Source of the DNA: Fragilariopsis cylindrus CCMP1102
Lineage: Eukaryota; Bacillariophyta; Bacillariophyceae; Bacillariales; Bacillariaceae
DNA length: 55,284 nt
Direction of reading: 5' to 3'
Assembly (NCBI GenBank): GCA_900095095.1
Contig: FMBT01000551.1
Coordinates: 1-55,284 of the forward strand
Shown here: piece by piece, positions 2,194 to 49,991 of the stretch
Position numbering within the stretch: position 1 is the first letter of the stretch
Layout of the letters: every line of letters starts with the position of its first letter
Position numbers and translations under genes: made by a program
Notes under the pieces: generated by a model
The model's input: the letters and a program-made list of their open reading frames with translations, nothing else
Database searches by the model: none
Told to the model about the DNA's origin: nothing

Positions 2194-3303
2194 TTATGGA
2201 CGACTCAACACTTCTTTCCGGGATTTGCTTTCATCAATTATTTGGACAGAATCTCTACGTCCTTGTTGTTTTAGGTAACTTTGACGTAGGAATTCTTCTC
2301 GATCTGCTTGTTCTTTAGCCTTTTCTTCGTATTGTTTTCGTTGGAAGGCTCTGTATGCAGCCGAATCAGCTTTTTCATCATCACCCCCGAATATTGATCC
2401 AACATCACAACATCCAAAACCAAGATCGGGTGCAGCCTCATCTGCTTTACTAGAATGGAACACTAAAGGGTTCGCCTTTCGTTGTCGTCTGCGATTACGA
2501 ATGAACGAGGTGGATAATGGTTGCTCTTCCAATTTCTGCAAAACAAGGTGACGACGGAAGATCGATTGGATCTTCGTAACAGCCGAGTATTCCTGTGTGG
2601 TGTGTGGTGTGTGGTGTGAAAAGCAACGATGTAGCGAATGTTAGAGATGAAATATAAATGGAAATATTCCATAATTTTTTAGAGAAGGAAGTAAAGAAAG
2701 AAGAACCAAAGCTAACTAACAACAACAAAACGATAACGAAGATACTCCGTGGACGCAAAAAGTAATAGTATATTATATAACTATTCCAAGTATAACTGGT
2801 AGTTGGTAGTCAATCAAATACTACTTACGACGTCGATCCAATCAAATCTAGTTGGTCCTTCAAAAGCAGCATCTTTTGCCGCCGGTGGTAGACTACAGAG
2901 ACTGTTATTTAGATCGTCATGCTGCTGTGTTGTTGTTGCCGACTACGTCTTGTTCCACTTTCGTTCGATGCCTCTGTGATCTTTGATTGTAATTGACTTG
3001 GAGGAGGACCACCTCCATTTCCGTGTCGTACTTGACCATTATCAAGATTTTTCTCTTCACCAGAAGATGATGTTGACGTGGAAGAGCCTTTGTTGTTGTT
3101 GTTCTTCCTATTTTCCCTTCCCTTTCTGCTTCTTCTTGCTTGTTAGCCACGACTTAATGATCGTGACGAAGAGGAACCACGACCACCTTCAGTCGTCACT
3201 TCATTGGGAATACTTCCAATATCATCGTCATCTTCATCGTGAGAAAGATCAACGTCCCTCTCATCAGTTTGATTACTACTTTACGTCCAAAAAGGAAACC
3301 CAT
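2194..3303 (-). CDS. IQ-motif (calmodulin-binding type) protein, frame disrupted
   Basis: The start ATG at 3303 opens with MGFLFGRK. The frame then runs through an acidic, Ser/Asn-rich region to a GT-AG intron at 2828-2593 (donor GTAAGTAG, acceptor CACACAG). Exon 2 (2592-2194) begins with AVTKIQSIFRRHLVL, a clear IQ motif (IQxxxR), followed by a charged helical tail of about 110 residues. IQ motifs bind calmodulin or EF-hand light chains; no other domain is recognised, so the target is unknown. Exon 1 is not open: one base seems missing after the AAA at about 3280, an in-frame TAA lies at 3145-3143, and another shift falls in CAA repeats near 2930. The predicted peptide is coherent on both sides of each break, so sequence error or recent decay are both possible. 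Exon 2 alone is intact. Confidence 0.6.
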
Positions 3304-5310
3304 AGTTTTAGTTTTCGATTAGGAAGTATCAATATATTATATATATATATATATTATGGTCAAATGTAATCCTGCCTTAAGAAGGTTTTCAATTTTCGTC
3401 AAATTCTATTTGCATCTATCTAACCTACTGTTTGAAAGAACGTTACGGTATCGGTAAAAGCAACCAACGCTGGTAATGATAAATTGAATGATGGCATAAA
3501 TCAATAGCTACTGTAGGGAGTTGAAATGCATAATCTCTCCGTCTTCTATCTAACCTTCTTACTGGTACGTTATTAGTGTACAGTATCGGAAATAGTATCA
3601 TTCAACGTAGATTTGATGAGGACGAATAAATAAAAGAGTTTTTCAACGGATTTCAGCGATTGAAACGCGCGCCAAATTTGCACAAGCCAGGCCGTGATTG
3701 GATGACGAATTTATTTTGGTGGGTGTCTAAGAAATATTATTTCTGCTCAATTTTTAAATAGCTTGAGGTTGTGTTGTATTTATTTGTTGTTTTTCTGCTG
3801 CTGGGAACATGTTTGGTGCTGAGATGTTACAACAAGTATTAAGTGGTATAATGATCAAAACTAACTCTGATATACAGATTTTTGGGGGATATATATCATG
3901 AGATTTCCAATGATGCTGTGAGGCATATACTACTGACCTCAAAGAACTTCATCAAAAATACACCATACTGGCAGGTCTGAGTTTGATCTCAACTCCACCA
4001 CACCACATCTGTCTTTGATCCTGTAGCATAATGTTCATCTCAAGACAGAGTGGATTTTGACAATAAATTTCTACAAATTTTAAATGGTATTTGGTACCTC
4101 CTTACTATATATAAATAATGTGGCGTATCAAATAGTGAAGAATCAAGTCAATGACAAGGAAGACATTGTTCAATTTTGAGATATCTACATATCCTGTGGT
4201 TGAAGTTGGACCTATTGTTTCTCAGATGCTCCTCATAATAAATGACATATCACAGCTATTTTAGCTGTAACTGCAGGGGGTTGGATGGAGTTGATGTTAG
4301 GGCTACTGTAGATGTAGCAAATCAATGATGAAATTTTAGGTCAGAAATTACTACCCTCCTTCAGCACAATGAGACTGATCAAATGTGAGTGATTCCTTTT
4401 CCAAATAAATGGTATCAATCACCACACACAACACGCAAAGAAAGGACCAAGCTTTCCTTTGAAATAGGACAGTCAAATTGATACTAGCAAACAAGGATGC
4501 CTTGGATGATATTTCTTCTTCATACCACCATCCAACATGCCATCAAGGGGCTAAATCTAGTCATGTTCACTTTGACGTAAATCCTTTGGCAATCCTTCAC
4601 AAAAATTAGGCGTAAGAAGTACTTGCTGAGGTGGTAACATTGCTCCCTTCCCTCCAGAAAACCATCTGTGCTCACCCAATCACCCAAGTATGCTGCTATT
4701 AAGTCCAGTAGTTGACTGAATAATCAGCAGAATACTTGCTTTGGATCAAAATCATGCCTTTCATCACACCAAGTTTGTTTTAGAAAAGCAATTTATAGTT
4801 GACAGTGAACCACCAAAATGCTCAATAACTCGGGTGACTATACGGTGGATACGCAATTGTAATGATCTAGTCTTTGTATTGATGTTACTCATACTGGATG
4901 TCTATGGCGAAATGATATGTCTTGGTCTGAATCAACAACAATCGCCCATCTTGCTTTGATACAATCCTTGTTCATCTCTTGACCTTGACCTTGTGCTTGG
5001 CTTGTGCTTGTTTAGAACGCCGAAGACAGTAAGTCTGTGGTTGCAATGTATGCGATCAAAACAAGTATTGGGATATCAAAAGAAACATAGCATTCTTCTC
5101 ATTACAGAAAAGCTATGTGATTATTTTGATCAGAAGTGGTATGCAATACATGGGCACAAATATCCATCGCTCCGCATTATTGGTTATTGTTCTCATTACC
5201 ATATCTAATATAAGGAGAAGATGAGAAACTTGTCTTGAATAGAATAAAGGAGCAACTCAAGGAGCAATATATTCCTTACACCGTCACAGTATATAGGAAA
5301 CTTGTAAAGC
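3304..5310. other. long non-coding stretch
   Basis: No recognisable gene. An E2F-like GCGCCAAA (3669-3676), followed by an ATTGG box (3697-3701), lies about 370 bases upstream of the IQ-protein start and could be promoter elements. The stretch 4700-5210 has short open frames on both strands but none resembles a known family. Confidence 0.4.
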
Positions 5311-5311
5311 A

Positions 5312-6983: not shown

Positions 6984-8660
6984 GGCAATGTGAGTGAGTA
7001 GGATGGACATATGGATTGATTCGACACGAGCGAAGGATAAATCGATGAGAGGTGGTCTTACCTTGAGACATAATTGCAGCTGCAACCTTCAAAAGCTCCA
7101 TCTGATGTTCAGAATTATGAGCTCGGGCATATGCAACGTTTTCCAAAGTAGCAACAGGATCCAAACCGAAACGTTCGGCAATCAATTTGAGACGTTCGGG
7201 ACGGAAGGATCCTTCTGTATCAATATACATTGCTTTTCCTTCAGCACCACCCTGATCAATGGACATTTGACAAGTGACACAAAGAGTATGGCACAATTGA
7301 GTCTTCCCAGTACGGAATTCACCAAAAACTTCCGTAATAGATCCTGTTTCAATACCGCCTTCCAAAAGTTTATCAACCTCAACGGATCCAGTCGTTAAGT
7401 TCACAATCGCTTTACGATCAAGTAATGCATCAGCTGCGGTTTTGAATTCCATTGGAACCAACCCCTTGACAAGTTCTTTCAACTTGGTAACTTTCGCTTC
7501 AGAAATCCCCTTGACATCTGAAGTTTACGGACCGTTGCGTGTGCAATCTATAATCGATAGTATACGATAGATAATATATTATATTATTTCATATAAAAAG
7601 AAGAAGAAGAAGAAGAATGTTAGTGTTAATGTCAACGGGTGATAGTGGAAGATAATGATTCGAGTCGTTGCCACCACCGACGCAATGTATTATATATCGG
7701 ACAAATAATATTATAGATATTAAAAAAAGGCTCCTACACAATCGTCAACATGTATTGATGGATATTTGTCGAATATTTACGTACCGATTGGATTGTGTTA
7801 TACCCACCAGATTGAAGTTTCTGGATATCATTTGCGGAAATTCCATGTTCTTGAAGAACATCAAGGGTTTGGTAGCATGCATCCTGTAAAATATTGGTGA
7901 GTATATAAAGAAGCAAAAGAAACACGTCGGGTGAGTTTTAAAATAAATAATGGTAGATAATATTTTGATACTCATACTAATTATGATTGACGAACTGACG
8001 AAATGGAATATAAAGAGGAACAAAAGATATACACATTGTGTAGCGAAGAATACAGTATATTATTATGTTCAAATAGGTATTATTGTCACCGGAAATTCGG
8101 GGAGGGGGGGGGGGGGGAGTTGGTGAACAGCGACGACGACGAAGAAGAAGAGGAAGAAGGGGAGATGGTATGGAATCTTCTTTCTATTATGATTTTATTC
8201 ATATGATTATTCTTTCGAAGGAACAAGGCGACATTCTTTCAACAACTGCGTCATTGTAGTGGGTGGAAGGCGTCGACGACAATGACAAAGAGAAGGAAAA
8301 AAAGAGCCTCTTCTCACAATGACGAGAAGGACAGGAAAAACATGAAAGCAGACGAATATTATATATTAATGGAGTGGAGGGGATTCTCTTTCTAGTGTGA
8401 TGTAATCACGCCGACGAACGAAATATCAATTACAGTAATAATAGCAATGAAGATATGATACGATACGATACGATACGATACGATACGATACGATGGCGAT
8501 GACGACGACGATAACGACGACGACGACGACGACGACGACGATAACTTGTAGAACCCCAAAACTGCTTAATAAAACTCACCGCTTCTTCCTCTTCCACATC
8601 ATCACCATCCATTCGTTGATCATGTTCCTCTCCGGAATCGTTTGTTTGTTCGGCTTGCAT
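6502..8660 (-). CDS. RAD51: RAD51 recombinase, four exons, one apparent frameshift
   Basis: RAD51 forms filaments on single-stranded DNA and catalyses strand exchange in homologous recombination. Exons are 8660-8580, 7883-7785, 7547-7062 and 6878-6502, all with GT-AG borders. The protein (about 347 residues, normal length) has the N-terminal helix-hairpin-helix region ([20 protein letters not shown]), Walker [10 protein letters not shown], Walker [12 protein letters not shown], and the L2/C-terminal block [13 protein letters not shown] ending [17 protein letters not shown] and [13 protein letters not shown] favour RAD51 over DMC1, although SEHQMELL and DPGA are DMC1-like. Exon 3 is one base short: the peptide IAHATVRKL joins DVKGISEAK only if a T is added in CTTCAG near 7521. 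Intron 1 is long (696 nt) and filled with microsatellites. Assembly error is the likeliest cause of the shift because all catalytic motifs are intact. Confidence 0.9.
8455..8545. repeat. CGATA and GAC microsatellites in RAD51 intron 1
   Basis: About eight copies of the pentamer CGATA (8457-8493) are followed by GAC/GAT triplets (8494-8541). They lie just inside the donor end of RAD51 intron 1 and are not coding. Confidence 0.9.
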
Positions 8661-9540: not shown

Positions 9541-9845
9541 GGAATCGAATCGAATCGAATCGAATTGAATCGAATTGAATCAAATTGAATCAAATTGAAT
9601 CAAATTGAATCAAATTGAATCAAATTGAATCAAATTGAATCAAATTGAATCAAATTGAATCAAATTGAATCAAATTGAATCAAATTGAATCAAATCAAAT
9701 TGAATCAAATTGAATCAAATCAAATTGAATCAAATTGAATTGAATTGAATTGAACCGAATCAAATTGAATTGAATTGAATTGAATTGAATTAAATTGAAT
9801 CAAATGAAATGAAATCAAATCAAATCAAATCGAATCGAATCGAAC
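9541..9845. repeat. 10-bp satellite (CAAATTGAAT)n flanked by GAATC/GAATT pentamers
   Basis: From about 9588 the decamer CAAATTGAAT repeats about ten times without interruption, then continues in a degenerate form. Both ends grade into 5-bp GAATC and GAATT repeats, which suggests that the decamer arose by amplification of a mutated pair of pentamers. Confidence 0.95.
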
Positions 9846-15005: not shown

Positions 15006-16247
15006 GCAACAAAAACAACAACGAAAACAAATGGATTTAGATTATGGAATAATTATTGATGATGGCTGTACAAATGAATTATTACAAAGAATACAAGATA
15101 TACGTTTAAGTTTAGAATTAAACTATAAACGTCCAACTGTTAATCGTCGTTTTTTTGTGGACGATGATGCTGATATTACTGCTACTGCTACTGCTACTGC
15201 TACTACTACTACTAACAATATTACTAATACTGATACTGATACTTCTACTACTACTAATAATAAACACAATCGACCACGAGAATCATTGATTTGTAAACCA
15301 ATTGAATCCATAATCAGATACGTATTAAATGAACAAAAAATTATTACTGCTACAAATAATAAAGAAGTAATAATAACCAATAACGAGAACGATGATAATA
15401 ATGATTCTGACCATGATTCTGACTATGAGAATGAGTATGAGTATGAATATGAGTATGAATATGATGTATATTGTAATAAATATTTACGTTTTTTAGAATA
15501 TAGAACACTTGGGAAAGAGCTCCTAGCTCATCGTGATGGTATCAAAGTATGTGATGAGACTAATATAAAAAGTACACATACTATGTTATTATATTTAAGT
15601 ACATGCTTATCAGGTGGTGAAACATTAATTATGAATGATAATTCAAATGCAACTGCAAATACAAATACAAATACAAATACAAATAATAATACAAATACAA
15701 ACAATAATAATTGTTGGGCAAAACAAACTAATCTTCATATATCAACATCTAATGATGAACGTAGAATTATTCGTCGAAATGAATATGAACATGAATATGA
15801 ACATGAACATGAATATGAATATGGTAACGATAATAAAGGAACAGAAACAGAAATGGATTATGATGCAACAACAACAACAGCAGCAACAACAACAGCAACA
15901 AGTAGAACTAAATTGATTCGTCTTGACGAAAATAATATGATTATGACAACGACAATGACAATGACGATAAAAACGGTAATTATGATAATAATGATAGTGA
16001 TAATGAAATGACGAATACTACTACAAGTACAAATGGCAATACAAGTGCAAATACAACTTGTACTACTACAAGTACAACAACTTCTCCTTATGTTAGTGTT
16101 GGGATACAACCGGTGGAAGGTAGAATATTAATTTTCCCACATTATTGGCCACATGCTGGTGCGATTATAACGAAACATAGTATACCAAAAATTGCATTAC
16201 GTGCTGAGTTAACAATTACTAAAAAACGTACAGGTAGAACTAGTTGA
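14697..16247 (+). CDS. 2-oxoglutarate/Fe(II) oxygenase (prolyl-4-hydroxylase-like), split by low-complexity inserts and frameshifts
   Basis: The catalytic double-stranded beta helix is recognisable: an iron-binding HxD (LAHRDG, about 15530), a following strand pair with LYLSTCLSGGETLIM, and near the C-terminus GRILIFPHYWPHAG with the distal His, then an Arg in ALRAELTI suited to bind 2-oxoglutarate. This is the arrangement of P4H-type hydroxylases, which hydroxylate protein prolines or related targets using Fe(II), 2-oxoglutarate and O2. Long Glu-Asn, Gln, Asn-Thr and Tyr-Glu tracts interrupt the domain. The C-terminal part is in another frame; adding one T at AATAATATGA (about 15936) joins them through a YDYDNDND stretch. 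The start at 14697 also needs shifts inside the GAGAAC microsatellite (14790-14880). The substrate is unknown. Confidence 0.7.
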
Positions 16248-18245: not shown

Positions 18246-19147
18246 GTAGGCAATCCTAAATGTTCCAAACAAACAGCACAATTTTGTATATTGTTGTCAT
18301 TATCAGTATCATTATTACATTTTTTTATTGTCGCTGCCGCTCTTTTAGTCGTCGTGTCTTTTGTTGACAGACCATCATCCTCACTTGTACTACTGGTACT
18401 AGTGCTACTGAACTTTTCTTTATTATTGTCATCAAATTTAGTCCCAGTTGCAGATGCTGCTGCTGCTGCGGTATCGTCACTTGTACTACTACTAATACTA
18501 CTGACGCCACCACCCCCACCCCCATCGCCGTCACTTGTACTTGCTGCTTCTGAAGTAGTGGTATCATTCTTGTTATCGTTATTGTTATCGTTACTGTCAT
18601 TATTTCCACTCCCACCAAAATTTGTATGGAATAGTAATGAATTTTGTTGCTGTTGCTGCTGTTGTAGCTGTTGGTCTTCTTTTTGTTTAGTAGCATTGCT
18701 TTTTGTTTTGGTTGTATTGTTTCTAATTTAATAACACGTTCTATATGACATATCTCCCGATCATTAAAAGATATATATGGTTTCCCATTCAGATCATTTA
18801 CAAATTCAATTGTATCTTCTTCATTTAAGAACTGTACAAGAACGAGAAACGTCCTTTTCTGTTGTGAATTATTTTCCTTTTTCTTCCTCTCCTTCTTTCT
18901 ATGATTATCACTAATATCACCGTCTTCATCGTCTTCATTATCAACCTCTTCACTATCGCCATTATCATTATCATAATCGTAACTATCATAATCGTCATTA
19001 TCATCGGATATAACAACTCTAACATGTTCAATAAATGGACGATGTGATCGTATTAAATTTAATATTCCTTCTGGTACATGTTCAGGTAATACACCAATCA
19101 TTGCAGCCATATGCATATTATTATTACCTGAAGTATTTGTTGATATC

Positions 19148-34080: not shown

Positions 34081-34230
34081 ATTGGTACCATAAATGGAAA
34101 ATTAAACTATTGCGTTTTTGTTTTTGTTTTTGTTTCTGTTTTGTTTGTTGGGTTTGATGTGACAATAAAAAGGTTTTAAACAAATTGAAGAACAAAAGAA
34201 AAAGAGAAGAAAAAGTACGCAAATAATGTG
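34081..34230 (-). repeat. copy of the MMSDH intron 1/exon 2 boundary, at the start of the membrane gene
   Basis: Matches 31049-31209, including the AATAG acceptor and TTTAATTT.CCATTTATGG of MMSDH exon 2, and ends exactly at the ATG of the gene at 34080. Confidence 0.9.
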
Positions 34231-34280
34231 TGTATGTATGTGTGTAGGCCTACGACGTACTTCAAGTAACGTTATGTATA

Positions 34281-34636
34281 CTTCCTCCGTGCACCCCTAA
34301 AATCAACCGCGCTATCGTGTAAAAAATTAATATGCGCTAAAGCGCGATAAATCAACCACCTTTTAAGGTCTGTCGATGCTTGGAAAATAAAAAAAGGGTA
34401 GAACCTTATGGATGTTGATATATGAAATCTGTGTAGAATAATAGTTTAGATGGAACCATCAAATTTTGAAAAAAATGTTTATTGATAGAGTTGCACACAG
34501 TTGAATGATGAATAGTTTTACTAGTATTTGCTAGTTATTTTTTGGGCATTATTTAGTTTTTTGAGTGATAGCGTGTTAATAACAGGCTAAATTTTCAACC
34601 GATAGCGAGGTTGATTTTAGGGGTGCACGGAGGAAG
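34281..34636. mobile_element. Stowaway/mariner-like MITE, complete
   Basis: Ends are 37-bp inverted repeats: CTTCCTCCGTGCACCCCTAA at 34281 and its complement finishing at 34636, with one mismatch or so. They are flanked on both sides by TA, the target duplication of Tc1/mariner elements, and the tip resembles the Stowaway consensus (CTCCCTCCGT). The 355-bp interior is non-coding, with GCGCTAAAGCGCG palindromes. Confidence 0.9.
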
Positions 34637-35214
34637 TACAGTAGGTGAATATATTTTATTAGACATTGTTGAAAATTTTCAGTCCCACACAGCCTAAGAG
34701 AATTCTGAACGGCAGCCAACAACGAGCGCAGAGCCATGGTAACCCGGAAGTGCCTCGAGTCATTACTATTATTATTTTAATATTTATACAGTACTACGAC
34801 GCACGTACATACGGTCAGACGACATTTACTATTTGAAACCAACAGAAATCATTACGCACGGAGAATTAAATAAAAGAGACAAAAAAAAATCACGATTTGT
34901 TTGATTTTACCGTAGCCGATTAAACACAACACACAGCAAACACAATCCGGCACGGTACCTGTGAAGAAAAGAGGAGACACGCTGTCATTTTAATCACAAA
35001 ACACCCATCAAACAATCAATCCAATCAATTCCAATTCTACCCAGACAAAACAAAAAGCAAAAGCAAAAAACAAACCCAAACCAAAACCAAACCAAACCAC
35101 AAACATCAACATCAGCACAATTCACAATCAATATCAATATCAAATATTTCACAATTCATAGAAAAACAAAACAAACGTTACAAATACAGCATAATAAAAT
35201 AATCAACATACATC
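34637..35214. other. upstream region of the 35-kb gene
   Basis: A/C-rich leader from about 34990 to 35214 (AAACCAAACC, ATCAAT and CAAAAC repeats) is probably the 5' UTR. No gene. Confidence 0.4.
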
Positions 35215-36563
35215 ATGAGCACATCATCATCATCATCATCCTCATCATCATCATTTCGTCGAGTTACTGTGCAAGAATCATCATCAACGGATATAGTAGA
35301 ATTATCAGTTTCACTTCTAGTTGCTAAAACTCAATTTACTTTAGCTGTTCAAATTGCAATTGAGGCATTGATGAATAAATGTGGTTATTCAAGAGAACGT
35401 GCAACTACTGCATTATTAAAAGAATTAAATCGAAGCAGTAGTTCAAATAATAATACCAATACTGATAGTACTAATTATGTAGCAGGAAGTGGATGTAGAA
35501 GTGGAAGTGGAAGTGGGACGGCGTCTGCCAATGTCAATTTTAATAATGTCAATAATAATAATAATAATAATAAACCAACAGACGATGAGGTGCGTATCGT
35601 CGTGTACGGTTACCCATACTTGACAATTTTCTCTTTCTGATTTAATCTCATCTCGATCTCACCTCACCTCACCCTTTGCTTTTCCAATTTTTAATACTCT
35701 AGATTTTTGAGACCGTGAGGAAACATAGATTAGGTATCGAAGAAGCGAGTAGATTTGTATATGTCAATCGTGCTGTTAAAAGAGAATTAAATAATAACAA
35801 GAATAATATGAAGATAAAATAAAAACACTAGCACACATACAAATGCATACAACTGCAATGCAATCACACAACATGCAAATGCAGCAGAAGCAATCCATAG
35901 TTTGATCAAAAAGATATCATTAGATAATATTTTATATGAATCAGAAGACTCAGATTATGATGACGATTATGAAACATCGGTGTCAGTATCGGCATCGATC
36001 GGCATCGGCAACAAACAAGAATCATGAACCTAACATCGAACAGAAGAAGGAATTATTGATCCCTAATCCTGATAATAATATACCATCAACAACATCAAGA
36101 AAGTCACCACCACACACCATAATAAGAAAAGGGCGTTGTCATCATCATCATCATCATCGTCGTCGTCGTCCAACAAGAATGCCCGCAATAAGAAAATCCC
36201 ATCTCCTCGTAGTAAGCAAGCAAAACGAATTGCACTAATCACGTCGGTGGTGGTGGTGGTAGTCGATCCTTACGATCCAAGGTGAATCCAACCATCAATA
36301 ATAATAATAATAATAATAACAACAATAATAATACTATCCTCATCGGTCGTAAGCGATCGATTGAAGAGACTACATCCGACGACTCCACGGCAATGGCAAC
36401 AACCACCAATACTAATACGGCTGCTGAAGGGGATGTTAATGTTGATGGACCACCAGAGAAACGTCGAACAACTCGTGCTTCCAAGAGACTTCATCGGTCT
36501 ACTTCGTCATCATCATCATTATCATCATCGTCGCCACCATCATCTGAACAACAGCAGCGGTAG
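35215..36563 (+). CDS. Asn/Ser-rich protein with conserved N-terminal helical region; one intron and several apparent 1-nt deletions
   Basis: Exon 1 (35215-35589) has a Ser run, then ELSVSLLVAKTQFTLAVQIA and CGYSRERATTALLKELN. The intron 35590-35702 (donor GTGCGT, acceptor CTCTAG) joins IFETVRKHRLGIEEASRFVY. After that the text continues in changing frames: EAIHSLIKKISLDNILYESE (35890-35940), EPNIEQKKELLIPNPDNNIP, NKKIPSPRSKQAKRIALITS and finally a Gly/Asn-rich part with KRRTTRASKRLHR ending at 36561. Single added bases at A4 35816-35819, G3 36131-36133 and G2 near 36246 repair three breaks; the one near 35998 lies in a TCGGCA repeat and needs +2 or -1. The basic clusters suggest nuclear location. 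No family recognised. A shorter 164-residue product ending at 35818 is the alternative. Confidence 0.55.
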
Positions 36564-37616
36564 CAGCAGCATAGCGGTAGCAGTATTGGTGCCAACAATA
36601 ACATATCACTATCTTTCAAATACTTCGTCAATTGGAAGATGGGTTGAATGAATTCCTTTTAATCTAAAGAGTCGCGGAGTCAAGTCTCCTCTGTCTCAAA
36701 GGACTTCGGCACCTGCATGCCTACCAATTAAAAATCACAGATAAAAAGAAAATAATTATTTACACAACAACAAAATGATAATAATCACTTTCCTTTTCGA
36801 ATTTTGTCACACGTATAACATATTTTATTATCTTTTACATAATAAATATTAAATATATAATATAGTTTTTATTCCTTAATTCTTTACTACTACGCTACTA
36901 AATTACAATGCAATGCTCTCCCCTTCTCTATTATTAGACCTGCTGTACCTACCTACCCAATCAATCAGATCGCAGCTCTCTCCCTCGTCATTCGCAACTA
37001 CTAGCTACGCTGTACGTACCTAGAATGACCGTCCAATATGTATACACGCATGTCATGTGTGCTCGCTGACTCAACTAAGATTGATTCAGATTCATTGTTC
37101 GAAACAAATCCAACGTTTTTGGCTACTACCGTGCAGTGTGCTGCAAGACGAAATGATAGGTAATCGCCATTGCCCGTTATATACAGTACGGTAGATGATC
37201 ATGCACGTGGTATTTTACTCCACGGGATCTGGGATAGAAGCCGTTTCTGGTACGGGAAATGAATAATGACATGATACTGTACTTTTACTGTAGGCTACTA
37301 CTACTAAGCACTGTCACAATACTACTTTAAGAAGTGTGTGTGCGTATTTTTCTTTATAATTTTTCTTCTATATATATATATGCATAATATTATATTTCAA
37401 GTTTTTAAACATGTAACAATTTAACTAATAATAAGAGATGTAGGTTTTCACTTCGATTCGATTAGACTAGTGTTTTGTATACAGAAGCGGCACGTACCCC
37501 CACCACCTCAATAAAAAGTATTGGATATTTTTTAACAACGACAGATCAACCCTTCCGTGGGGTCATCATGTCTTTGAGGTCTTTTCTTTTCTTTTTTCTT
37601 CTCGCTGTTTTCCCTC
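36564..37616. other. convergent intergenic region
   Basis: AT-rich 3' flanks of two converging genes; TATATATA at 37370-37382. No gene found. Confidence 0.5.
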
Positions 37617-38685
37617 TTATGGTTGCTGTTGAGGAGCAACAGGTTTGACAGGATCAGATGGATGTTGTGAGTATTCAGCATTGACGTAGTCTTCATCATC
37701 AACGTCAGCTGGTTTACTTGCAAGTGTACCCCATAAGTCACGATTTTTAGATGGATGTGGTGTATTAACAAGTAACCAACCAGCCAACCAAAAGTGTGCG
37801 GCTAATGCAGGAATTAACAGTAACCAAGTAATAAGACCATCGTATCCAGGCCAGAATAGGAATAGACATGAGTTAAGAACATATCCACCTCCTGCCAAGC
37901 ACATTGTGTATCCCATGTATCGTGGGAAGACACCCCATAAAACAATGGTAAAACCTAACATAAACATGTATACACCACCAAAGACTGTACGGGTAGTAGT
38001 AGGTAAGGGTAGGTAGGCATGTTAGTTAAAGGAAACGACAGTAAAAAGAGTTGTTAGCACGGAATATCGTATTCCATAGATCAAAACGACAACAAAAGTA
38101 TAAACTTCTTGTAAATGAAAAGAACGTACCTTGTGATAAGTAATGTCCATATTGATTAATCATCAAAAGCATAAATGAAATTTGTGTTCCAATTGGTGGC
38201 ATATTGTCACTGTAGAAATACTTTTGAATTACTTCCGCAATAGGAAGGTTATCATCCAATAATAATCCTGCTGCAATTAAAAAGATTAAATTGGCAGCAG
38301 AAACAGCTTGTTGCACTATCTTGAAGGTACATAATGTAACAGCAGTTGCGGGATTCACACCAGCTCCCACTAAGATTAAACCAAGTGTAACACCAATAAC
38401 AATATCCAATAAGCATACTACTAAGTCAAAAAAGATACCAATTTTGAATGCCGCCATACTTTCTGTGATCGAGTAGGCAGTCTTTTCAGGTTGTTGCCAT
38501 TCAATTAATACCCATCGTATAGCAATTGTGGTATAAATTGTACATAGTATACTAATTACAGTAAGGATTCCTGTACTGAGTGCAGCACGTCGAAGACGTT
38601 TCCCACGAGCGGCAAGTTTATCACATTCTTCTTGATAGCGGGCCTCTTCTTCCGACATTTGATTGTATTGCTGTTGTTGCGACAT
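37617..38685 (-). CDS. DUF4386-like multi-span membrane protein
   Basis: Exons 38685-38130 and 37984-37617 with intron donor GTACGT and acceptor CCCGTACAG, giving 307 residues, all in frame. A cytoplasmic Gln/Glu-rich start (MSQQQQYNQMSEEEARYQEE) is followed by about seven hydrophobic helices. The last third, FPRYMGYTMCLAGGGYVLNS followed by a helix pair and AHFWLAGWLL, fits the DUF4386 pattern (loop with PR..G, then Gly-rich helix and a final WLL). Bacterial DUF4386 proteins are uncharacterised integral membrane proteins, so no function can be given. The C-terminal tail is acidic then Pro/Gln-rich. Confidence 0.65.
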
Positions 38686-40446
38686 GGTTCTTGTTTGTCT
38701 TCCTAAGATAATAGATAGTTCAACAAAAAGCTCAATGAGTAGAAGTTTGTGAAGGTATGTGAAATAATCTATTTTCTTTGCTTAAGTTTATTGCGTCTGC
38801 TGTTATCGCTTTTATTGCGTCTGCTAAGGTTTTTGGATTGGGAACTGCACCTCCGAGGGCGATTTCGACTCACAATATTACGTATGATGTGGAGTGTCGT
38901 CATCCTCCCTTTAATTAAGTTTAAAAATCGCATGTGATTGATCGCAGATCGCCAGAATCTACAAAAAAGCACATAATACACTCATTACTTGGCGAGAATT
39001 CACTAATTCTTATCGGATAGATTTTCGCGATGGATCGACTGCACGTGAATCTTCATTATGGCGCACAAAAAATATATATTTTAAACTCGAGATCGCGACT
39101 GAACCATTCAAACTATTATATGTCACGGGACTCACTCTCTTTTACAAATCAAGGATGTCAGTTGTCTACTGTACCTAGTAATTGTTGGACTTGATACCAC
39201 CTACCTGCCGCTGCTGCTGTTGCTGTTGCTGTATCTGATTCGTGTTGTCACATATATGAACAGTAGCTAGATTGTTGGTTGAATTGAAGATCTTACACTG
39301 TGTGATGGAATTCTTTTTTTTTCTTATGTAAGGCCAATATAATAATAAGATGGACAAAAGATGAAGTGAGTAATGTGTGATGGATTTCTCTCTGATAGAT
39401 AGATGTGTACACTACTTTATACATACAATTTATCATTCAACGTCCTCTTGCTTTGTGTTACTATTATTTTACACCATTGTCATTAATAATCATGGTTGTT
39501 ATCTCTCTGTGGTGTGAGATGTCTAGTCTAGCTTGTCTGCCTGGGAACATTGATTTGTTTTTGTCCACTAGCAGTCCTCCTTCAGAGCAGTAAGTATTAC
39601 ACACCTACTGTGTCCACTGAAGACTTCCCACTTCTCCTCTTCATTAAAAAATTCAAGCCGAATAATATGTAGGGTAGCTCTCAGTTAGTAGGACTAATGA
39701 TTTGAAAGATGTAGTGTACACCATGAACCACAAAAACTTAAAACAACTTCAGCACCGTTGCTGCTCACTTGGCATTAGTTCATACAATCAGTAGTTATAT
39801 CAGCATGCTTGCTGCAGTATATTTGACCATTAGCATCTTCAGGAAGAGACTACAATTATGCTATGAGATTCAGCTGCATCACTCTAAATCAGGTATCTTT
39901 TATTGCAACATTTGAGGTAATTGTATTTGTATCAGAGACTGGGTGATAGCAGTAGTACCAATCAAATACAAATTTGATGCAAAGTAGTCGTATAGTGTGT
40001 GTGTGCGCAACATAACAAATCTCTGGACACGGATGACAAACAGCGCTTGCTTGAAGGAGAAGGAGACCATGATGATGTTAGTAGGCTTGCGTTGCGTGTA
40101 TTGGTGTTGCTGAACTTGATGGAGAAACCTTTCTGGTAAGGTTGAATTGCACTTTATTTCGAATGAGAATTATGTGCCGTAAAAAAAAGAGAAGATAGAG
40201 AGATGTATTCGTAGTTCTTGCACACCAAACTGTTCTCGCACGCAAGTAGCACGATCGAACTAGCTAGAATAAACGTGGCAGATTGGCTCGCGATCTAAGA
40301 AAAATTATTGAAATCAAAAATTCTTATTTTTATGTCAGGAGGCGATACAAAACATTATGGCATCACCGAAGGTATCTAATGGTATTTATCCGAGATTTTA
40401 CTGGAGTTTTCCGTCGAAGGGGACTGTTCTTTAATTAGCCATGCTT
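38686..40446. other. long intergenic stretch
   Basis: No convincing gene. A minus-strand stretch at 39357-39213 with a Gln run ends at a good donor (CGGCAG/GTAGGTGG), and 38959-38769 follows an acceptor-like TTTTTTGTAG, so a small spliced minus-strand transcript is conceivable but not supported by any motif. Confidence 0.35.
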
Positions 40447-40640
40447 ACTTCCTCCGTGCAACGCTTAATTCACCCGCGCTATCGTTTGAAAATTTAGCGT
40501 GTGTGAAAAGCACGCTAAAACCTTAAAATATTTAGATCTACTCACAAAATAGAGGGTTAAAGTCACAAGTTTCCCTCATCCTCCTTGCAAATTTCAATTA
40601 TCGATTGAAAATTAACAAGCGCTAAAGCACGCTCAAATAA
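40447..40640. mobile_element. truncated copy of the Stowaway-like MITE
   Basis: TACTTCCTCCGTGCA and CACCCGCGCTATCG at 40445-40484 match the left end of the element at 34281, and internal GCGCTAAAGCACGC recurs at about 40619. The right inverted repeat is not found, so the copy is broken or highly diverged. Confidence 0.6.
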
Positions 40641-40984
40641 AAAAAAATGAAATATTTGAATATTTGGCTTGTCATCCTCTCTCTCACCGTGTTAAACTAT
40701 ATGGCTTATATCAAAAAAAATATTGTACTTCAAGTACGGTGATCTTTGGAGTAAAATTGCTTTTACGTATAATTACTAGTAGTAGAGCGCATAAAAAAAG
40801 TCTCTCTTTCCTTCTCTCTCTCTTGTCAAAACCAGCTTTTGTGCTTTTGATGTGCTTCGCAAGTAATAAGTAGCAAGTGAAGATTTTTTGTTTCGTCAAA
40901 ATTCAATAATCATAATAATTAATCTGAATTCGAACAATTCTTCGAAATTCTGAGATCGAATACGGGGAAAAAAGAAAAAAATAT

Positions 40985-41764
40985 ATGGAAATGGATACTA
41001 TAGAAATGGATATTGAAACAGAAACAGACAACAACGATTCGAACAATGATGATGATGCGGAGAGAAGCCACCTGATTCATTTTTTATTGTTGCTCGTTTC
41101 ATCCTACGTATCTCTATTTTTGGCAGCTACGTACCCTGACAATATGTTCTGGAATGCAACATTTTACATTGTTGCTTTATATTCTATTTATTTTGTTTGC
41201 TGTCAATCCAATGAACAGAAGAATCAGAAGAATCTTCTAATATATGGTGTTAATTATATGGTTGTATTATTGTTGAATTTTATTATTATGATCGTACTTC
41301 AGAAGTAGTACACGTGTATCAACGGCAACAAACAACAGGAGTATGAAAATAATGAGGAAAAGGACAATGATATTAGCGATGAAGTTGATGATAATCGCAC
41401 ATCATTAATATCGCCACAATCAGCATTAGCATCAACATCAGTATCAGCTACTGCTGCTACTGCTTCGCCATTAATAAATACTAGTAGTAATATTATCCGT
41501 GTGCCCAAAACTTTTGGACTGCTCAATCCGTTGATTGTTCTTTCAGAATACTTATATATGACTAGACTAATAATCGATGTAAGTATTGTACAAGTAAGTA
41601 GTGTACGAATACCATAGTAAATATTGTTGAATAAAATTTCGTTTTATTTTACAAACAGATAAACAAATGTATGCATTTTTCATGCTATTATGTATCAAAA
41701 AACATTTTGATCCCAGGTTTTCATTGCAGTGGTAGCAGAGAGCATATGTAGACGATTGATTTGA
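40985..41764 (+). CDS. small membrane protein, one intron, in-frame TAG
   Basis: Exon 1 begins MEMDTIEMDIETETDN (acidic), then three hydrophobic segments ending at LNFIIMIVLQK. An in-frame TAG at 41306-41308 follows, but the same frame stays open for another 270 bases: EEKDNDISDEVDDN, a Ser/Ala/Thr linker and FGLLNPLIVLSEYLYMTRLI. It then ends at a consensus donor (GAT/GTAAGT, 41579) and joins exon 2 at 41717 (acceptor TTGATCCCAG) reading VFIAVVAESICRRLI, stop at 41762. The composition on both sides of the TAG is protein-like, so the gene probably spans it. Without readthrough the product is 107 residues. No family recognised. Confidence 0.5.
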
Positions 41765-41856
41765 TGTGATTTCCCAAAGTACAGTGTAAGTTTAATTTCG
41801 ATAATAATGGACGAGCGAAGGAACGTTATGTATTCATGAGTATCATAATACCATCG

Positions 41857-44440
41857 TTACATCTTGTAATTGAATTGGAGTACGTGGGATCCTCCACTAG
41901 TGGACAGTTGATCATCGACTGTAATATTAGGATTATTATTCATGCCACCACCACAACCTGCTGCTAACTTCGACAATAGCTCTCTTCTTGAAATAGCGTC
42001 CAAGCCGTTACCACTCATATCCATATCCGATTGAATTGCTCCTCCTCCGACAACACCACCCACACCACCAGCTGAATTGGAAGAATTATTGGGATTAAAT
42101 TCACCAAAGAAAGAAGCATCGGGTGACGATGATGATTTCATATTGTTACCGTTGCCGTAGCTGTTGTTATTATTGTTTTGCTGTTTAGCCATCTGAGTTA
42201 GCTCCTTGGACTCACGTAGCATATCAATAGCTTGTTTTTCTTTTTGGGCTGCACTTAGTAACAACCTTCTTCGTTGTAATGATTCAATCATGGCAGCTTC
42301 CTCCATATTGGAAACACCACCGCCTCCTCCTCCTCCACCACCGGAGGGAGAAGACATCATTCCTAAAAGGGAGGAATCGATACCACCCCCACCACCAGAA
42401 GAAGAAGCACCATTACCTCCGCCACTTCTAGCAAGATCGGCTCGCAATCGATTGATGGTCATCATTTCTTCAAGATCCCTGTTATATCCATTGGATGACA
42501 AACCACCGACACCACCAACACCACTCATATTTCCCATTCCCATTCCATTCATAGTACCACCCATGGCACTCATTAGACCCGATGAATTATTTCTACCGGA
42601 TGAATTATTATTACCACCACCAGAACCTCCTCCCATATTATTCATGTTCATCATTGGATTCATATTCATGATTCCATTCATGCTCATATTCGTGTTGATG
42701 GGGTTCATGTTGTTCATGTTGTTCATATTGTTCATATTATTCATGTTCATAGTGGCAAGTGCCAAATCGTTTGGTCCCATTTGCATTCCTCCCATGCCTT
42801 CGAGATTCATATTCATGCCATTCATAGCATTCATTCCGTTCATGCCATTCATCATATTATTCATGTTCATGTTCATGCCATTCATATTCATATTCATACC
42901 ATTCATATTCATTCCGTTCACGAGGGCCGTTTTATTAAACATATTAGAAGCGTTGTTCATAGCGTTCGCTTGCTGTTGCTGTTGTTGACCAGCTTTGTTC
43001 TTCGTGCGTCGTTTTTGTAATGATTGTGGCTGACGTTTCCCACAGCGGAGTTTCTTTCCAAGTTCCGTTGCAGCCTTTCGGATTGCATGGCCTATTTATA
43101 TATATTATTACAGTAGAGGAGATGGAATGATGAGTAAATTAAGTTGAATGAATTTAGAATTCACAATCACACGAAGTAGTATTGTATATACCGATACGAG
43201 ATAGACCATAAACAATAATGATCATAATAATAGTATAAAACGTACCGACTTTATCACGAGCCTTTTCATCACCAACTTCAAACCAACGATTTGAATAGAA
43301 GTCCTTTTTAATAAAACCTCCTCCTGGACTTCTATTACGAACTTCTGCAACAATTTTTGCAATAACTTCCGACTTTTGATATTTTGTATTAACATTTAGA
43401 TATGTTGTTGCATACTCGTTAATCATTTGACGGAATTTTTCATTACCAGCTGTTATGAGCAAAAGAGAGAATGAATGGAGCATTATAGAATATTGTTAGA
43501 TCCCAAAAAAAAGTTATCAATTCGAATCGATTCGTATATAAATACGGGAATAACAAAATACGATTTGTTTGTCTGCCTGTCTCTTAATAGAACTTACGGT
43601 GGGAATGCTGTGTTATGGAATGTAATCCAAATCAGAAACAAAACAGGAAGGAAGGAAGGAAAACAAAAGTGTTCGTTAGAGACATTTACTCGATACACAA
43701 ACGCACACACACACACACACACACACGTACACACGCACACACGTACACAACCAATTCGATACAAGATAGAGATAAGATTAAACTAAACTCTTACTTACAT
43801 TTTGCCTTGCCCAACTACAGATAACATCTTCATCATTTGGTTTGTACCCTTCCTCTAGCATTGTGTAATCATCAGCAGATGTCATTCGTGGTGGTTTTTT
43901 GGTTGCATCACCGAATACGACTGGTATTTCTTCTGATGTTTCTGTTTCTTTTCCTTCTTGCTGCACAACAACAACAACATCTGCATCATCCTGTTGTTGT
44001 CGTTGTTGTTGTTGATCGTTGTTGATCATCTTGATGTTTTCCTCCTTCTCGTTCTTGATTATCTTGGTGTCAACTTTAATATTTGTGTTTTCATTATCTG
44101 ATGCGTCTGTTTCATCGGAAGAAATTGCAGTGTTGTCGTTGTTGTTGCTGTTGTCATCATCATTAGTATTTCTTTGTTTCTTGTTAACTACTACGATTTC
44201 GTTTTTTTCAGACCCTTTCTTCACTTGAGCAGATTTTTTGACATCATCAAGATCATCGCCATCGCCATCGCTTTTCTTGTCATTTTTGATCTCATCCTTG
44301 TTAGACTCTAAGGACGAAGGAGGAACAAAAGGAACGGCCTTTTCGCTCTTATTCATAGGAGGATGAGGAGGAAGAGGAATGACTTTTTCACTCTTCTTGA
44401 TAGGAGCAGAAGAAGTAGAAGAATCCATTGTCATAATCAT
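41857..44440 (-). CDS. DUF6824-domain protein, four exons with a 10-nt microexon
   Basis: Exons: 44440-43799, 43607-43598 (10 nt), 43449-43246 and 43091-41857; total 696 residues, fully in frame. The DUF6824 domain spans the first junctions: KPNDEDVICSWARQN, then HSHP from the microexon, then GNEKFRQMINEYATTYLNVN, KSEVIAKIVAEVR, PGGGFIK and RWFEVGDEKARDKVGHAIRK. The family is found mainly in diatoms, often as DVxCGRG...HxGN...; its role is unknown, though basic and Gln-rich flanks suggest a nuclear regulator. The N-terminal 190 residues are charged and low-complexity. The C-terminal 370 residues consist of a Met-Asn-Gly repeat (MNGMNMNMN) and Gly/Asn linkers around one helical block (NMEEAAMIESLQRRRLLLSA). 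Skipping the microexon would destroy the HxGN motif and the frame. Confidence 0.88.
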
Positions 44441-44829
44441 TGCACAGTACGCGGGTAAAACTCAAATCAATGGGGACAAAGTTTGTAGTGTGTTGATGCT
44501 TCCTTCGTTAGTGAAATAAAAGTTGCTGGACTTGTATTGTAAGAGGAGATCTTGTGTATTTCTTTTTAAGCAAAGAGTGAGAGAGCGGTTTATCGTTGTT
44601 CGGTACGATTGAGAGAGAAGCATTCGTTTTAACGATTACCAGCGACCAAGAAGAAGATATTGTTAGTTAGATCAAATTAGTATTAGAATTCGAATTAGAA
44701 TTGAATAGGCAATATAGACGCGATGTTTTCTTCTTTTTCTCGCACTAGACACACACTGCGACAGATTAATAAACATCCAAAAGAGACACTCGAGAGAGAC
44801 ATAAACATCCGAAAGAAAAACGCAGAAGG

Positions 44830-44884
<55 letters not shown>

Positions 44885-46559
44885 TCGACACTACGCTACG
44901 CTCGAGGGTAGATATTCCACACAATCCGAAAAGACACACACACACACACACACACACACAAGCGACAAAATACAACTCAAAACACACATGTACACGCATA
45001 TAAACGCATATACACGCATACAAAAACAAACATACACAGATACAGATACATAGATACCCAAGATACACATAATCACATAATCGATATAAACTTACGGTTT
45101 GGAAGACAGTCGCGGTGTAGGAAAATAGAAGATGCGGTTACAAGTAAGGTAAGGTAGTGTAGATAGTGTTTCACGTGAGTTTTTTTGTTTTTGTTTTGTG
45201 GCACATAAATTAATTTTGTGAAGTCGGATTGACAAGAAAACCTGTGATATTTACCTTTTTTTTCTAGTGTTGTACGTGAAATGGGCAGCGATATATTTTT
45301 TGAACGTACGTATCACAACAGTTTTCACGTACAAAGAAATTAATTTTGTACACGTTGTTTGGCCAGTTAGAAATACCGTATTACAGTACTGCTTTTTTAT
45401 CATGCGTTGAGCGCATGTACGAATACTAGCCAGTAGTACGCATGATCACGAGAATGGTGAATGTAACAAAAATAATAATTGACTGATAATAATAGTACGA
45501 AAATACTTAAATAGGTCGATTACAGTTAAACACGATCGTACATATAGGAATAAATGATAAAAATCCAAAGCTTCTTTTTGAGCAGAGCTTAAAGAATCAG
45601 TCAATTAAACAAATAATAATAGGAAGAATGTAAAATCGACGAAGCAACTTCTCGAGCACAATAAACAAGAGGAACTTCAATCACTACCATGCCATAAGTA
45701 ATTCTTCGTTTTAAAACTGACACGTACAGTATTATCAAAAGGGCGCATACAGTTTCTACAACACCGATAATCTTGCATACAGTATAATATAGAAACCTCC
45801 ACGGGCTATTCTTTCTTTCCTCCAAGTTATTCTTATGCGGGACTAGCTGTTACACTGTTTCAGTACAAAATACAATGATGTACGGCACGACTCATTATTA
45901 TTTGAATCTTAATATTATTATTCATAATTATTAGTACAGTAGTTTGTTTTACATAAAAGAACGTTATGTATGTGTATCAGCTTGGAGAAGAGATCAGGTA
46001 CTCGTCGCGTGGACTGGATTAATGATTAAGTAAGAAGAAAGAATTCATTAAGTATAACTGTACTACTAAAGAATATTGCGTCAGCATGAGCAGAGAATAC
46101 ACAGCTTTGTATAAAAACTTTGTTTTTTGGAATGTTCCATTGATTTTTAAATACCTTAAGTCACAACATCAATAATTCGACCAGCGTTATTTATTTATCA
46201 TCAATTGTGAAATCTAAGTTGGAAAAGAATCGAATTTGTCAACAACTTTTACGTGGCGAATGGGCGGACTTTTTGAAGAAATCTAAAAGCGTTCAATTCA
46301 TTGCAACCATGAAATGGATTTTAAAAAATGAGACGCATTACATAATACATTAATAGACGGACTGAAATAACGTATTTGCTTGCATCACTATAAGAATAAT
46401 CCAGGTCCCGTGTAATTGATCAATCCACTTATCGCAAACAAACAAAAAATGATGGAAATAATGTTTGACTACAATACGTATCTTGGCTTTTTATCATCCA
46501 AATCAATTGTCAGTCGTTTGTATTTCTTATTTCTGCTACCTCCAATATTGATTTTGCTT
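44441..46559. other. intergenic region with GA and CA microsatellites; one possible exon
   Basis: GA repeat at 44831-44882 and CA repeat at 44934-44960. A minus-strand frame at 45840-45601 follows an acceptor-like GTAACAG and encodes a hydrophobic helix (CALLIILYVSVL). It could be the last exon of an unrecognised gene, but no upstream exon was identified. Confidence 0.35.
44831..44882. repeat. (GA)n microsatellite
   Basis: About 25 uninterrupted GA units, followed at 44934-44960 by about 13 CA units. Confidence 0.95.
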
Positions 46560-48059
46560 GGCTAGTTGGCCTCTTTTCCCCCAATTTCATGTACATCTTG
46601 ATATTACTAGTAGACTATTCTTTTAGTAAATGGCTTGAATCATCGCTGTTAGGACTCTGCTTGATGACTGTTTCTTTTGTAATCTATTGTACACATTAGT
46701 CAATGGATTATTGGACATTTTCTTGGTTGCACATGTTTTACTTTTTTAGAACTTTCCTTAAGACTTTAGTCTTTACCAATTTTTGTACTGTGAAGTGCTG
46801 CCATATCGGTTTGCTATGTTTCTATGCAAATTCCTTCACTCTTTTCATGCTATGATCTATTTTGCTGGTTTCCATCTCAATAGCCATTTCTTTAGTTGCC
46901 AATTCGTGTCTACTAGTCTTGATTCTAAGTTTTCATCAAATATTTCTGGTTCATCTTCTGGTAGTACCATTTCTTTCATTGTGTATTCTTTGATAACGAG
47001 TCGTATTCTGCTACTAGTATCTACCCTCCTAATATCAATGTGTTTCTGTCTATGCATCGGTCTGTCGGTCCCCATTTCTTTTATAAATGGTACTGTAAAC
47101 TGGAAGAAACAATTGAAAGCTTCTGTTTTGTTCCTCTTCTTAGTTTTGTTTTTATTGTTGTTTTCTCTTCTTCTCTTTTCTTCCTTCTTTGATTTCTTGC
47201 ATACATAGCAGGATCCTTGACTCGTTTCCTATTTTTTATGCACAATTGTTATTGTATCTTCCATTGTTTCGGGAATTTACCTCTTAATTAATAGGTTGTC
47301 CCAACCTACTACTAATTGTTCGCCAATTAGTGGCTTGTAAGTTTATAATACTCTGGTTGTTCTTTGAGCCGAACATTGCCTTTGTAGTTGGATCTCCTTT
47401 GAAGTGTATGCTAGTAATCTTTCTTTGAAGTAAGTTAGTAATTCTTCTTTCATTATGTCACACAAGATTGGGTCAACTCTGCTCCTCAGTAGATATGTTT
47501 GTTTGATGATGTTCTTTTGTTGGCTCTTCCGTTTTGTGCATCTGAATAGGTGATCATCAACTTCTATTGAATGCCAGCATGACACACAGCGTTTGTCATG
47601 GTGGAAGTGATCTCTTATGTGTACTCTCTCTCCTGTGGGTAGTTTCTTTATGCAGTATTTTGTATTTTTATATGGCCATTGTATTCCTGTTTTGGATTGA
47701 TATGTGCTTCTTGTAGACCGGTCTGGAAATGTCCCAGTCTCTTCAAAGATGTTCCACTCCAATCAACCCTTAGGGAGAGAACTTCTGGATTGGAGGTAGT
47801 TCTACTATATTTCTCTTACCGTTCTCTTGAAGTCTCTAGTTATCTTTGTTAGTTCTCTCCCTTCAATATGAAATTGGATGATTATATTAGGACCCATTGG
47901 TACCAGAGGTTTTTCTTGTAGTCTTTTTAGTCCTGTTGTTGCTAGTTTGACTGCTTGTAAATTTAGATATGTGTTCAGGGGCATATCCGTTTCGTCATAT
48001 ACCTTGTCATCCTGATGACTTACTTTCTACCCAATTTTTGGAAATATTTTGAATTGTTA
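46560..48059 (-). mobile_element. degenerate reverse-transcriptase element (RNase H end and zinc-binding region)
   Basis: Read on the minus strand from 48030: VSHQDDKVYDETDMPLNTYL is the end of an RNase H-like domain (HQDD...LP...LN). Then come GPNIIIQFHIEGRELTKITR, two stops near 47810, and from 47762 WNIFEETG...LPTGERVHIRDH with a zinc ligand set CVSCWHSIEVDDHLFRC. This order (RNase H, linker, CxxC...HxxxC) is that of the C-terminal part of diatom RT polyproteins. A further piece at 47075-46857 and a decayed KKQSSSRVL/NNPLTNVY region (46850-46600) correspond to the C-terminal domain of the 48-kb copy. The RT itself is missing, so the copy is 5' truncated and inactive. Confidence 0.7.
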
Positions 48060-48603
48060 TATATAACTTATTATTTATAAGCTACTGCTTCGCTCCTCAA
48101 GGTCTTAGAAAGACAGTGAGTCAACAATTGACCCGCCAAATTAATCTACACTACTAGGTATTACATTGTTGGTTTTATTACAGGTTTGTCTCTAATCTGT
48201 CATCAATCATTTGTGTCTCTACTTCCGATACAGTTTGTTCTCTACTAGTTGTTCTCTTCTTTCCCAATTTATTGTACAGTTTTGATATCAAGTGATTGGT
48301 TTTATAAATGACTTTCAGTACTGGTAGTACTCTGCTTGATGATCTCTTCTTCACTAACCTGATGTACAGGTTTGTCAATGGATTGTTGGAATATTTCTCT
48401 GTTTTCATTTGCTGTGGTAGTCTCCTTGACACTTTAGTCTTTGCCTGCTTGTTTGCCGTAAAGTGTTTCCATGTCAGTTTGCTGTTCTCTTTTGCTAATT
48501 CCTTCACTCGTTTCATGCTCCTGGTACTATTGTTAACGGTGCAGTTGGAAATTTGTCATACGGTAAGGAGTGGAGCTGCAGCTTTTAAATAACAAGTTAT
48601 ATA
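48060..48603 (-). mobile_element. short RT-element derivative with inverted ends
   Basis: Minus-strand frame 48516-48178 (VKELAKENSKLTWKHF ... KKRSSSRVLPVLK ... KLGKKRTTSRE) is the C-terminal domain shared with 33225-32889 and 46.6-46.85 kb. Its 3' sequence ends at 48060 in TATATAACTTATTATTTATA, and the other end, 48603, carries the inverted counterpart TATATAACTTGTTATTTAAA; about 30 of 37 positions agree. So this 544-bp unit has terminal inverted repeats although it derives from an RT-type element. Confidence 0.6.
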
Positions 48604-49761
48604 ATATACTTGTATTTTGCTCCTTGCTGGTTCATCATTACAAGGAATGATATCGTTGTAATACTTATTGAGTAGTGTTACTAATCTTACTGCAGCAAGA
48701 AAAGCACATATTTCTGATCTGAATGACAGTGGATCAACTCAACAACCAATTGATATTACAATCAAGATTGGACAGGATAGGAGGTGTTATCAGGAGGGAT
48801 GTACACTACTTACAGAGTCAGACTAATGTTTGACAGTTTTGTATTCATAATGAGGAGCACTGTTCTAATAGCAATCTTTGGAATGTGTATGTTTTTGTGG
48901 GATAGTTAGTTTCTAGGAGGTCTGAGTTCCCCACATAGAGTTTGCAGATTGTAGGAAAAAGGGAATTTCACCAGCTTTCTTGCGTTGTAAGCTGTAAACC
49001 CATCTGTACACGGTCATTTATTTTCAAAAGAGGACCCAGAACCTACCTACAGTATATTAGTAATATACATCACATAATCTACGACCTCTAGACTACATGA
49101 AGGTCATTCAGACAGTATTTTTTAATAGACACATGACTCAGCCCCCCCCCCCCCCTCCCATACATGCTGGTCTTCTACCAAAGAACAAAAACTGCTGTAC
49201 AAACAACTTTCACATTATTTTTGATGTGATGCTAAGTAAGCTTTAGAGAGTAACTCTCTAAACATAAATATTAGTAAAGGCCTATCACTTTTGGAACAAA
49301 AGATGAAAATAGAACAGAGAAAGAGAAACCACCCCACTCCGTATCTTGCCAGAGTGTATATCTTACTACTGAATGATTGATTGGGCATGTTGACCCTACT
49401 TTAAGAGTTATTGCTGTTGCTGTTGCTGCTATTGTTGTTGTTCTGGATGTGATTGTGGTCTCTGCTCTGCTCTCTCTCTCTCTCTCTCTCTCTCTCTTTA
49501 TCCATACATAGTTCCACAGCTAAGTGAACAAGCAACTAACTCCCCGTACTCTGTACATCATATCCAGCACTACTACTAACTAATTGAAACTGTTGACCAG
49601 CACAAAGTGCTAGTAGCACCCCAACTTGAAATCCTAAGTGAATAAACAATCTAATAACAGAAAAGGGGAAAGCACAGATGTGCAACAACAGTAATATTTT
49701 AGTAGATTGTAGTATGAAAAACATTTGTGACAATGATCCACTGAGAAAATCAAAAGACAAA
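48604..49761. other. intergenic stretch
   Basis: Contains 14 C at 49142-49155 and a CT repeat at 49467-49498. No gene recognised. Confidence 0.4.
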
Positions 49762-49991
49762 ATGTCGGAATCAAAAGATAATCATCAGGATATATTTCTA
49801 TATTCCATTGCTGTTGCAAATCTCTCGAACGAGTCTCGATTCGGAACATGAACGTTGTTGATCCTGATTTTGGTTTTGATGCTGCTGCTGATGATATTGT
49901 GAATGAGGATGAATGTTATCAATCAACAAAAGTGGATCTTGACACAAAATATACGAATATTATGTTACGAATTGAACTATCCGGAATATAA
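49762..49991 (+). CDS. small hypothetical protein, one apparent shift
   Basis: ATG 49762 opens MSESKDNHQDIFLYSIAVAN and stops at TGA 49849. The overlapping frame from 49848 reads MNVVDPDFGFDAAADDIVNE and ends at TAA 49989. Both halves have normal protein composition, and a single added base near 49846 would make one acidic protein of about 76 residues. No family recognised. Other models (two exons, chance) are possible. Confidence 0.3.

Follow-up and report, generated by a model that had tools for sequence, protein, structure and literature searches.

Frame breaks in a Fragilariopsis cylindrus contig and its duplicate contigs are probably residual consensus errors

The window and its duplicate contigs

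The window analyzed here is a stretch of 55,284 bp from Fragilariopsis cylindrus CCMP1102 (GenBank assembly GCA_900095095.1) and makes up the whole of one contig, FMBT01000551.1 (referred to below as C130), in an assembly of 818 contigs and 67,884,144 bases. It carries genes for RAD51, a putative 2-oxoglutarate (2OG) oxygenase, BRAP, a MYND-finger protein, a DUF1279/FAM210-like protein and an aldehyde dehydrogenase, together with a gene at 35 kb (the 35-kb gene) and an exon of a DEAD-box helicase gene. A preliminary description, made from the sequence alone, had listed 11 sites at which the first seven of these genes are interrupted by a change of frame, and had attributed the interruptions to systematic under-calling of homopolymers in a long-read assembly. 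Since the same assembly contains additional copies of the locus, the breaks could be tested internally, by a comparison that needs no reads.

Three duplicate contigs were used, the duplicated stretches being given on the plus strand of the window. C102 (30,050 bp) matches window positions 5013-33721 in collinear blocks that are 87 to 99% identical, the two longest being 98 to 99% identical. C568 matches positions 41515-55283, and C115 matches positions 51351-55283 with 99% identity. For the interval 33721-41515, which contains the 35-kb gene, no long duplicate was present among the 39 of 833 candidates that were scored. C102 therefore spans 8 of the 11 listed break sites, and the remaining 3, all in the 35-kb gene, are not covered. 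A search of the window against Rfam gave nothing at the gathering thresholds.

Frame breaks compared between copies

Most of the listed frame changes are real in the deposited letters, but they had often been wrongly described. At five of the eight covered sites (those in RAD51, the MYND-finger gene and the DUF1279/FAM210-like gene, and two of the three in the aldehyde dehydrogenase gene), C102 is in frame, so the break is missing from another assembled copy of the locus. At the other three sites, the two copies are identical.

The RAD51 gene (minus strand) is broken at 7521-7522, where C102 is one base longer and in frame. The base absent from C130 is an isolated T at codon position 3 and not a member of the TT run in which the break had been placed. 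The RAD51 reading of C102 aligned without gaps to residues 52-211 of RAD51 homolog 1 (5jzc_A). In the MYND-finger gene (plus strand), the frame is broken at 22808-22811, upstream of a Pfam zf-MYND match, and C102 is in frame there. The G4 run named as its cause was itself created when a GGT repeat lost a T. Further down the gene, C102 lacks one base of its own at 23384 and has gained one at 23418, 34 bases away, so that the frame is altered only between the two; judged from the sequence, the pair could be either a true compensated change or two errors. The DUF1279/FAM210-like gene (minus strand), whose match to Pfam PF06916 (E = 0.0073; 17.2 bits) falls under the cut-off of 26, is broken at 27172-27173, and C102 is open across the translated stretch. 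It is a T, at about 27172, that is missing from C130. The A9 run at 27155-27163, where the break had been located, is the same in both contigs.

The aldehyde dehydrogenase gene (minus strand) proved to be more complicated. At 30613-30616, an A4 run thought to have lost one base, C130 is in fact two bases longer than C102, which is in frame. The N-terminal part of the gene contains a minisatellite at 31922-31976 that is irregular in both contigs, and here again C102 is in frame and C130 is not. The break listed at 31934 lies in this minisatellite, which differs between the contigs, and is a complex change. Taking the five sites that C102 decides, three are single lost bases, one is a gain of two and one is complex, and the statement that the direction is nearly always a deletion was therefore too strong.

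Three further observations concern the surroundings of this gene. Positions 31046-31192, comprising part of a dehydrogenase exon and an intron, are duplicated 3 kb away at 34078-34213 (85% and 71%). Beside this duplicate lies an open frame of 280 amino acids with no Pfam match at E ≤ 0.01. A 40-nt inverted repeat, 93% complementary, is found at 27835-27874 and 32135-32174, upstream of the DUF1279/FAM210-like and dehydrogenase genes.

The same class of error was found in the other copies, where it hits genes that are whole in the window. C102 breaks three genes, namely, the 11.8-kb gene, a gene that we take to encode a tetraspanin-like protein and a SpoU gene, all of which are whole in C130. 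C115 breaks the DEAD-box helicase gene, being one base short both at 54072 and at 54480 of an exon (54072-54480, plus strand) that is intact in C130. Since the genes that are broken differ from copy to copy, neither fixed pseudogenes nor programmed frameshifts are favored as the explanation. The preliminary description had already argued against both, a judgment borne out by the different genes broken in each copy and by the excess of gaps over substitutions where the copies are nearly identical (see below).

We then considered the breaks common to C130 and C102. The dehydrogenase break at 30826-30829 is identical in C102 and lies inside the Aldedh domain: profile positions 136-219 match in one frame and positions 230-279 in the next, and since positions 219 and 230 flank the break, there is little space for an intron. 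In the BRAP gene (minus strand), Pfam places the BRAP2 and zf-UBP domains in different frames, as expected of a frame change somewhere in the stretch 18270-18740. The change had been assigned to an A3 run at 18721, where C102 is identical; however, the BRAP2 match is still in the upstream frame when it reaches about 18700, beyond that run, so the break cannot be placed exactly. It is conceivable that the low-complexity linker of BRAP contains an intron and not a frameshift. The third shared break, at 15936-15950 in the putative 2OG oxygenase gene (plus strand), lies in low-complexity sequence and is identical in C102. Neither part of this gene has a Pfam match at E ≤ 0.01, and both the oxygenase label and the break are therefore unverified. 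Around these sites, C130 and C102 differ by a single-nucleotide polymorphism (SNP) only once outside a microsatellite between 14.85 and 21.37 kb and not at all between 28359 and 31807. To judge from this sequence, the two contigs probably represent the same haplotype, or were built from shared reads, at the three shared breaks. The 35-kb gene (35215-36660, plus strand), with its three putative frame changes, has no duplicate among the candidates scored, and its first exon, the part compared with Pfam, gave a single match below the cut-off.

If the shared breaks were sites of programmed ribosomal frameshifting or of insertional RNA editing, the best case would be 30826, where the surrounding domain is conserved, an intron would hardly fit and slippage on A_AAA is conceivable. 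However, inspection of the other shared sites by eye showed no such motif, the two contigs are not independent at these sites, and C102 is free of the two other breaks in the dehydrogenase gene. We find this explanation of the shared breaks barely credible. That the 30826 break is at least a true genomic frameshift, bypassed in translation or by RNA editing, is highly improbable.

Single-base gaps, substitutions and run lengths

C130 and C102 were compared over 25,440 aligned window bases in four blocks. They differ by 297 substitutions and 55 single-base gaps, with 38 bases absent from C102 and 17 absent from C130 (P = 0.006 for equality). A similar imbalance was seen between C130 and C568, with C568 short of 20 bases and C130 short of 7 (P = 0.019), and, in about 1.9 kb lying outside the window, between C115 and C568, where 10 bases are absent from C115 and 2 are absent from C568 (P = 0.039). 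Such unequal loss would be odd for true alleles but natural for contigs of unequal quality.

When the C130-C102 alignment was divided into 1-kb bins, the 13 bins with no more than 2 SNPs (12,722 bases) contained 13 single-base gaps versus 5 SNPs, and the remaining bins (12,718 bases) contained 42 single-base gaps and 292 SNPs. As the SNP-poor bins were selected for having few SNPs, a P value for this contrast would be circular and was not used; what carries weight is the mere fact that gaps outnumber SNPs in these bins. From 25.8 to 31.8 kb, for example, C130 and C102 differ by 8 single-base gaps and 2 SNPs.

The SNPs themselves were used to look for selection. Pooled coding SNPs (49 synonymous and 41 nonsynonymous, in 18 of 19 exon stretches, the set excluding the N-terminal stretch of BRAP) gave a ratio of nonsynonymous to synonymous polymorphism (pN/pS) of 0.22. 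This value shows purifying selection between the copies, which pseudogenes under relaxed selection would not be expected to show. Within the broken genes, RAD51 has nine synonymous and three nonsynonymous SNPs, and the MYND-finger gene has 11 and 9, respectively.

Could the haplotypes instead carry different frameshifts as true heterozygous null alleles, leaving one working copy of each gene? The sets of genes broken in C130 and C102 are complementary, as this would demand, and single-base gaps are scarcer both where SNPs are scarcer and in coding sequence, as true polymorphism would be. This explanation is at odds with the unequal rates of loss between contigs and with the excess of gaps over SNPs in near-identical stretches. 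RAD51 and DEAD-box helicases are usually important genes, and members of both are among those broken. We consider null alleles very unlikely.

The preliminary description was right to suspect the assembly, but homopolymers do not appear to be the main cause. Sorted by the length of the run in which they fall, 82 single-base gaps comprised 38 in runs of one (44.3 expected) and 13 in runs of two (22.4 expected), so that 51 of the 82 lie in runs of one or two bases, versus about 67 expected at random. Gaps were over-represented in runs of three (15, versus 8.0 expected) and in runs of at least six (10, versus about 1.4 expected), which is what systematic under-calling would produce. Long runs were nevertheless kept (C21, G17, C14, G14 and A12), the A9 run in the DUF1279/FAM210-like gene is the same in both contigs, and the losses vary from contig to contig. 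Together, the run lengths of the gaps and the survival of long runs indicate that homopolymers raise the risk of a loss but leave the bulk of the losses unexplained. Under-calling of homopolymers accounts for no more than a minor share of the damage, and as its main cause it is very unlikely.

The three-contig overlap of C130, C115 and C568 offered a view of where bases are lost. Both C115 losses fall at sites that distinguish C130 from C568 (T/C at 54072 and C/T at 54480), a coincidence with a probability of about 1.4e-4 by chance (41 SNPs in 3,473 bases). Five C568 gaps in the overlap are uninformative on this point. At the end of the overlap, the final 430 bases of C130 (54857-55284) are unlike both C115 and C568, which match each other, although upstream of this point C115 is mostly the same as C130. 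The letters here would fit either a haplotype switch or a poor contig end.

The window also contains several repeats. An element of about 360 bp at 34279-34638 has 51-nt terminal inverted repeats that are 90% complementary, and copies 86 to 94% identical to it are present on seven other contigs among the matches listed; we presume that it is akin to the miniature inverted-repeat transposable elements. An end related to this element was recognized by eye near 40448. Positions 32783-33169 and 48057-48455 carry a repeat, about 385 bp long, that is dispersed over many contigs with 80 to 91% identity. Tandem units at 32234-32610, mostly spaced at 42 nt, contain a GCGGGTA/TACCCGC palindrome, and another contig, C202, holds a 98% copy of them. 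A long array of 10-nt TTGAATCAAA-like units occupies 9541-9840, where the match to C102 is about 88%.

Interpretation and parallels in other assemblies

Taken together, these results make it very probable that the breaks are consensus errors, for the most part losses of one base, left behind in an assembly in which the locus is represented by overlapping duplicate contigs (haplotigs). As a choice between assembly error on the one hand and pseudogenes or programmed frameshifting on the other, the comparison of the copies leaves assembly error well supported. The errors would have arisen from a thin or haplotype-mixed long-read consensus. More tentatively, some of the losses might have occurred where the reads of the two haplotypes disagree and the consensus retains neither base. 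In the literature, we found no account of consensus loss at heterozygous sites, although a broader related listing was not followed.

A number of observations weigh against consensus error as the explanation or limit its reach. Three of the eight covered breaks (oxygenase-like, 15936; BRAP, 18721; dehydrogenase, 30826) are the same in C102, which, given the near-absence of SNPs around them, is not an independent witness there. All three isolated C130 losses in the three-contig overlap (52112, 55206 and 55248) sit where C115 and C568 agree, the latter two lying in the poor final 430 bases. Single-base gaps are fewer in coding sequence (1.3 to 1.4 per kb) than in noncoding sequence (2.7 to 3.0 per kb), and are scarcer in SNP-poor bins than in the others (13 versus 42 over equal lengths); since gaps thin out with SNPs and in coding sequence, some of the gaps probably reflect real polymorphism. 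We had considered coding versus noncoding density as evidence for error, using coding intervals drawn by hand. With low-complexity coding sequence omitted, the ratio of coding to noncoding was 15:40 for single-base gaps and 2:28 for longer frame-shifting indels (P = 0.025), the longer indels seeming the more depleted in coding sequence, but with low-complexity sequence counted as coding, the ratios became 16:39 and 7:23 (P = 0.62). As the contrast vanished once five longer frame-shifting low-complexity indels were reclassified, we set this argument aside. The lost bases showed no clear codon position bias (six at the third position, five at the second, one at the first and seven ambiguous), those at 12235 and 23384 both being T at codon position 2. 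Finally, the selection signal within the broken genes comes only from RAD51 and the MYND-finger gene. The DUF1279/FAM210-like gene has no SNPs, the dehydrogenase gene has one, and the scored part of BRAP has zero or one, which gives little power. Nonsynonymous SNPs exceed synonymous ones in SpoU (seven versus four) and in one DUF6824 exon (15 versus 5). DUF6824 is itself a domain that points to a diatom or a close relative.

A parallel is provided by the long-read assembly of Trypanosoma brucei Lister 427. That report describes a collapsed assembly with about 7,000 variants suggestive of error, 98% of them indel or complex, among them sites at which two alleles appear in the reads but neither appears in the assembly, and apparent frameshifts in conserved genes that vanish after error correction and allele separation (PMC8445201). 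Correction also raised the number of ordinary heterozygous calls by about 5,000, a figure described there as proportionate to the two-allele sites at which the assembly had contained neither allele (PMC8445201). By analogy, loss of this type at two-allele sites may account for a part of the losses seen here. The cases differ in that reads gave the proof in T. brucei (PMC8445201), whereas we compared duplicate contigs of one assembly, and in that the losses here occur in SNP-poor stretches too. Our findings likewise resemble the errors that fragment genes when small genomes are assembled from long reads, where a frameshift or a premature stop can make a gene look like a pseudogene (PMC12007338). 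Unlike our comparison, that study dealt with small genomes and assessed them against a curated set (PMC12007338).

The sequences of the copies suggest that the organism itself probably carries the broken genes in intact form; in the case of the three shared breaks and of the 35-kb gene, the same might be proposed by analogy only. The risk for annotation is that RAD51, the aldehyde dehydrogenase gene and others would be miscalled as pseudogenes or that tiny introns would be invented to bridge their breaks. Homopolymer-aware polishing by itself would be no cure for errors of this kind. Duplicate contigs of one assembly reveal many of them, and are worth consulting before gene loss is claimed.

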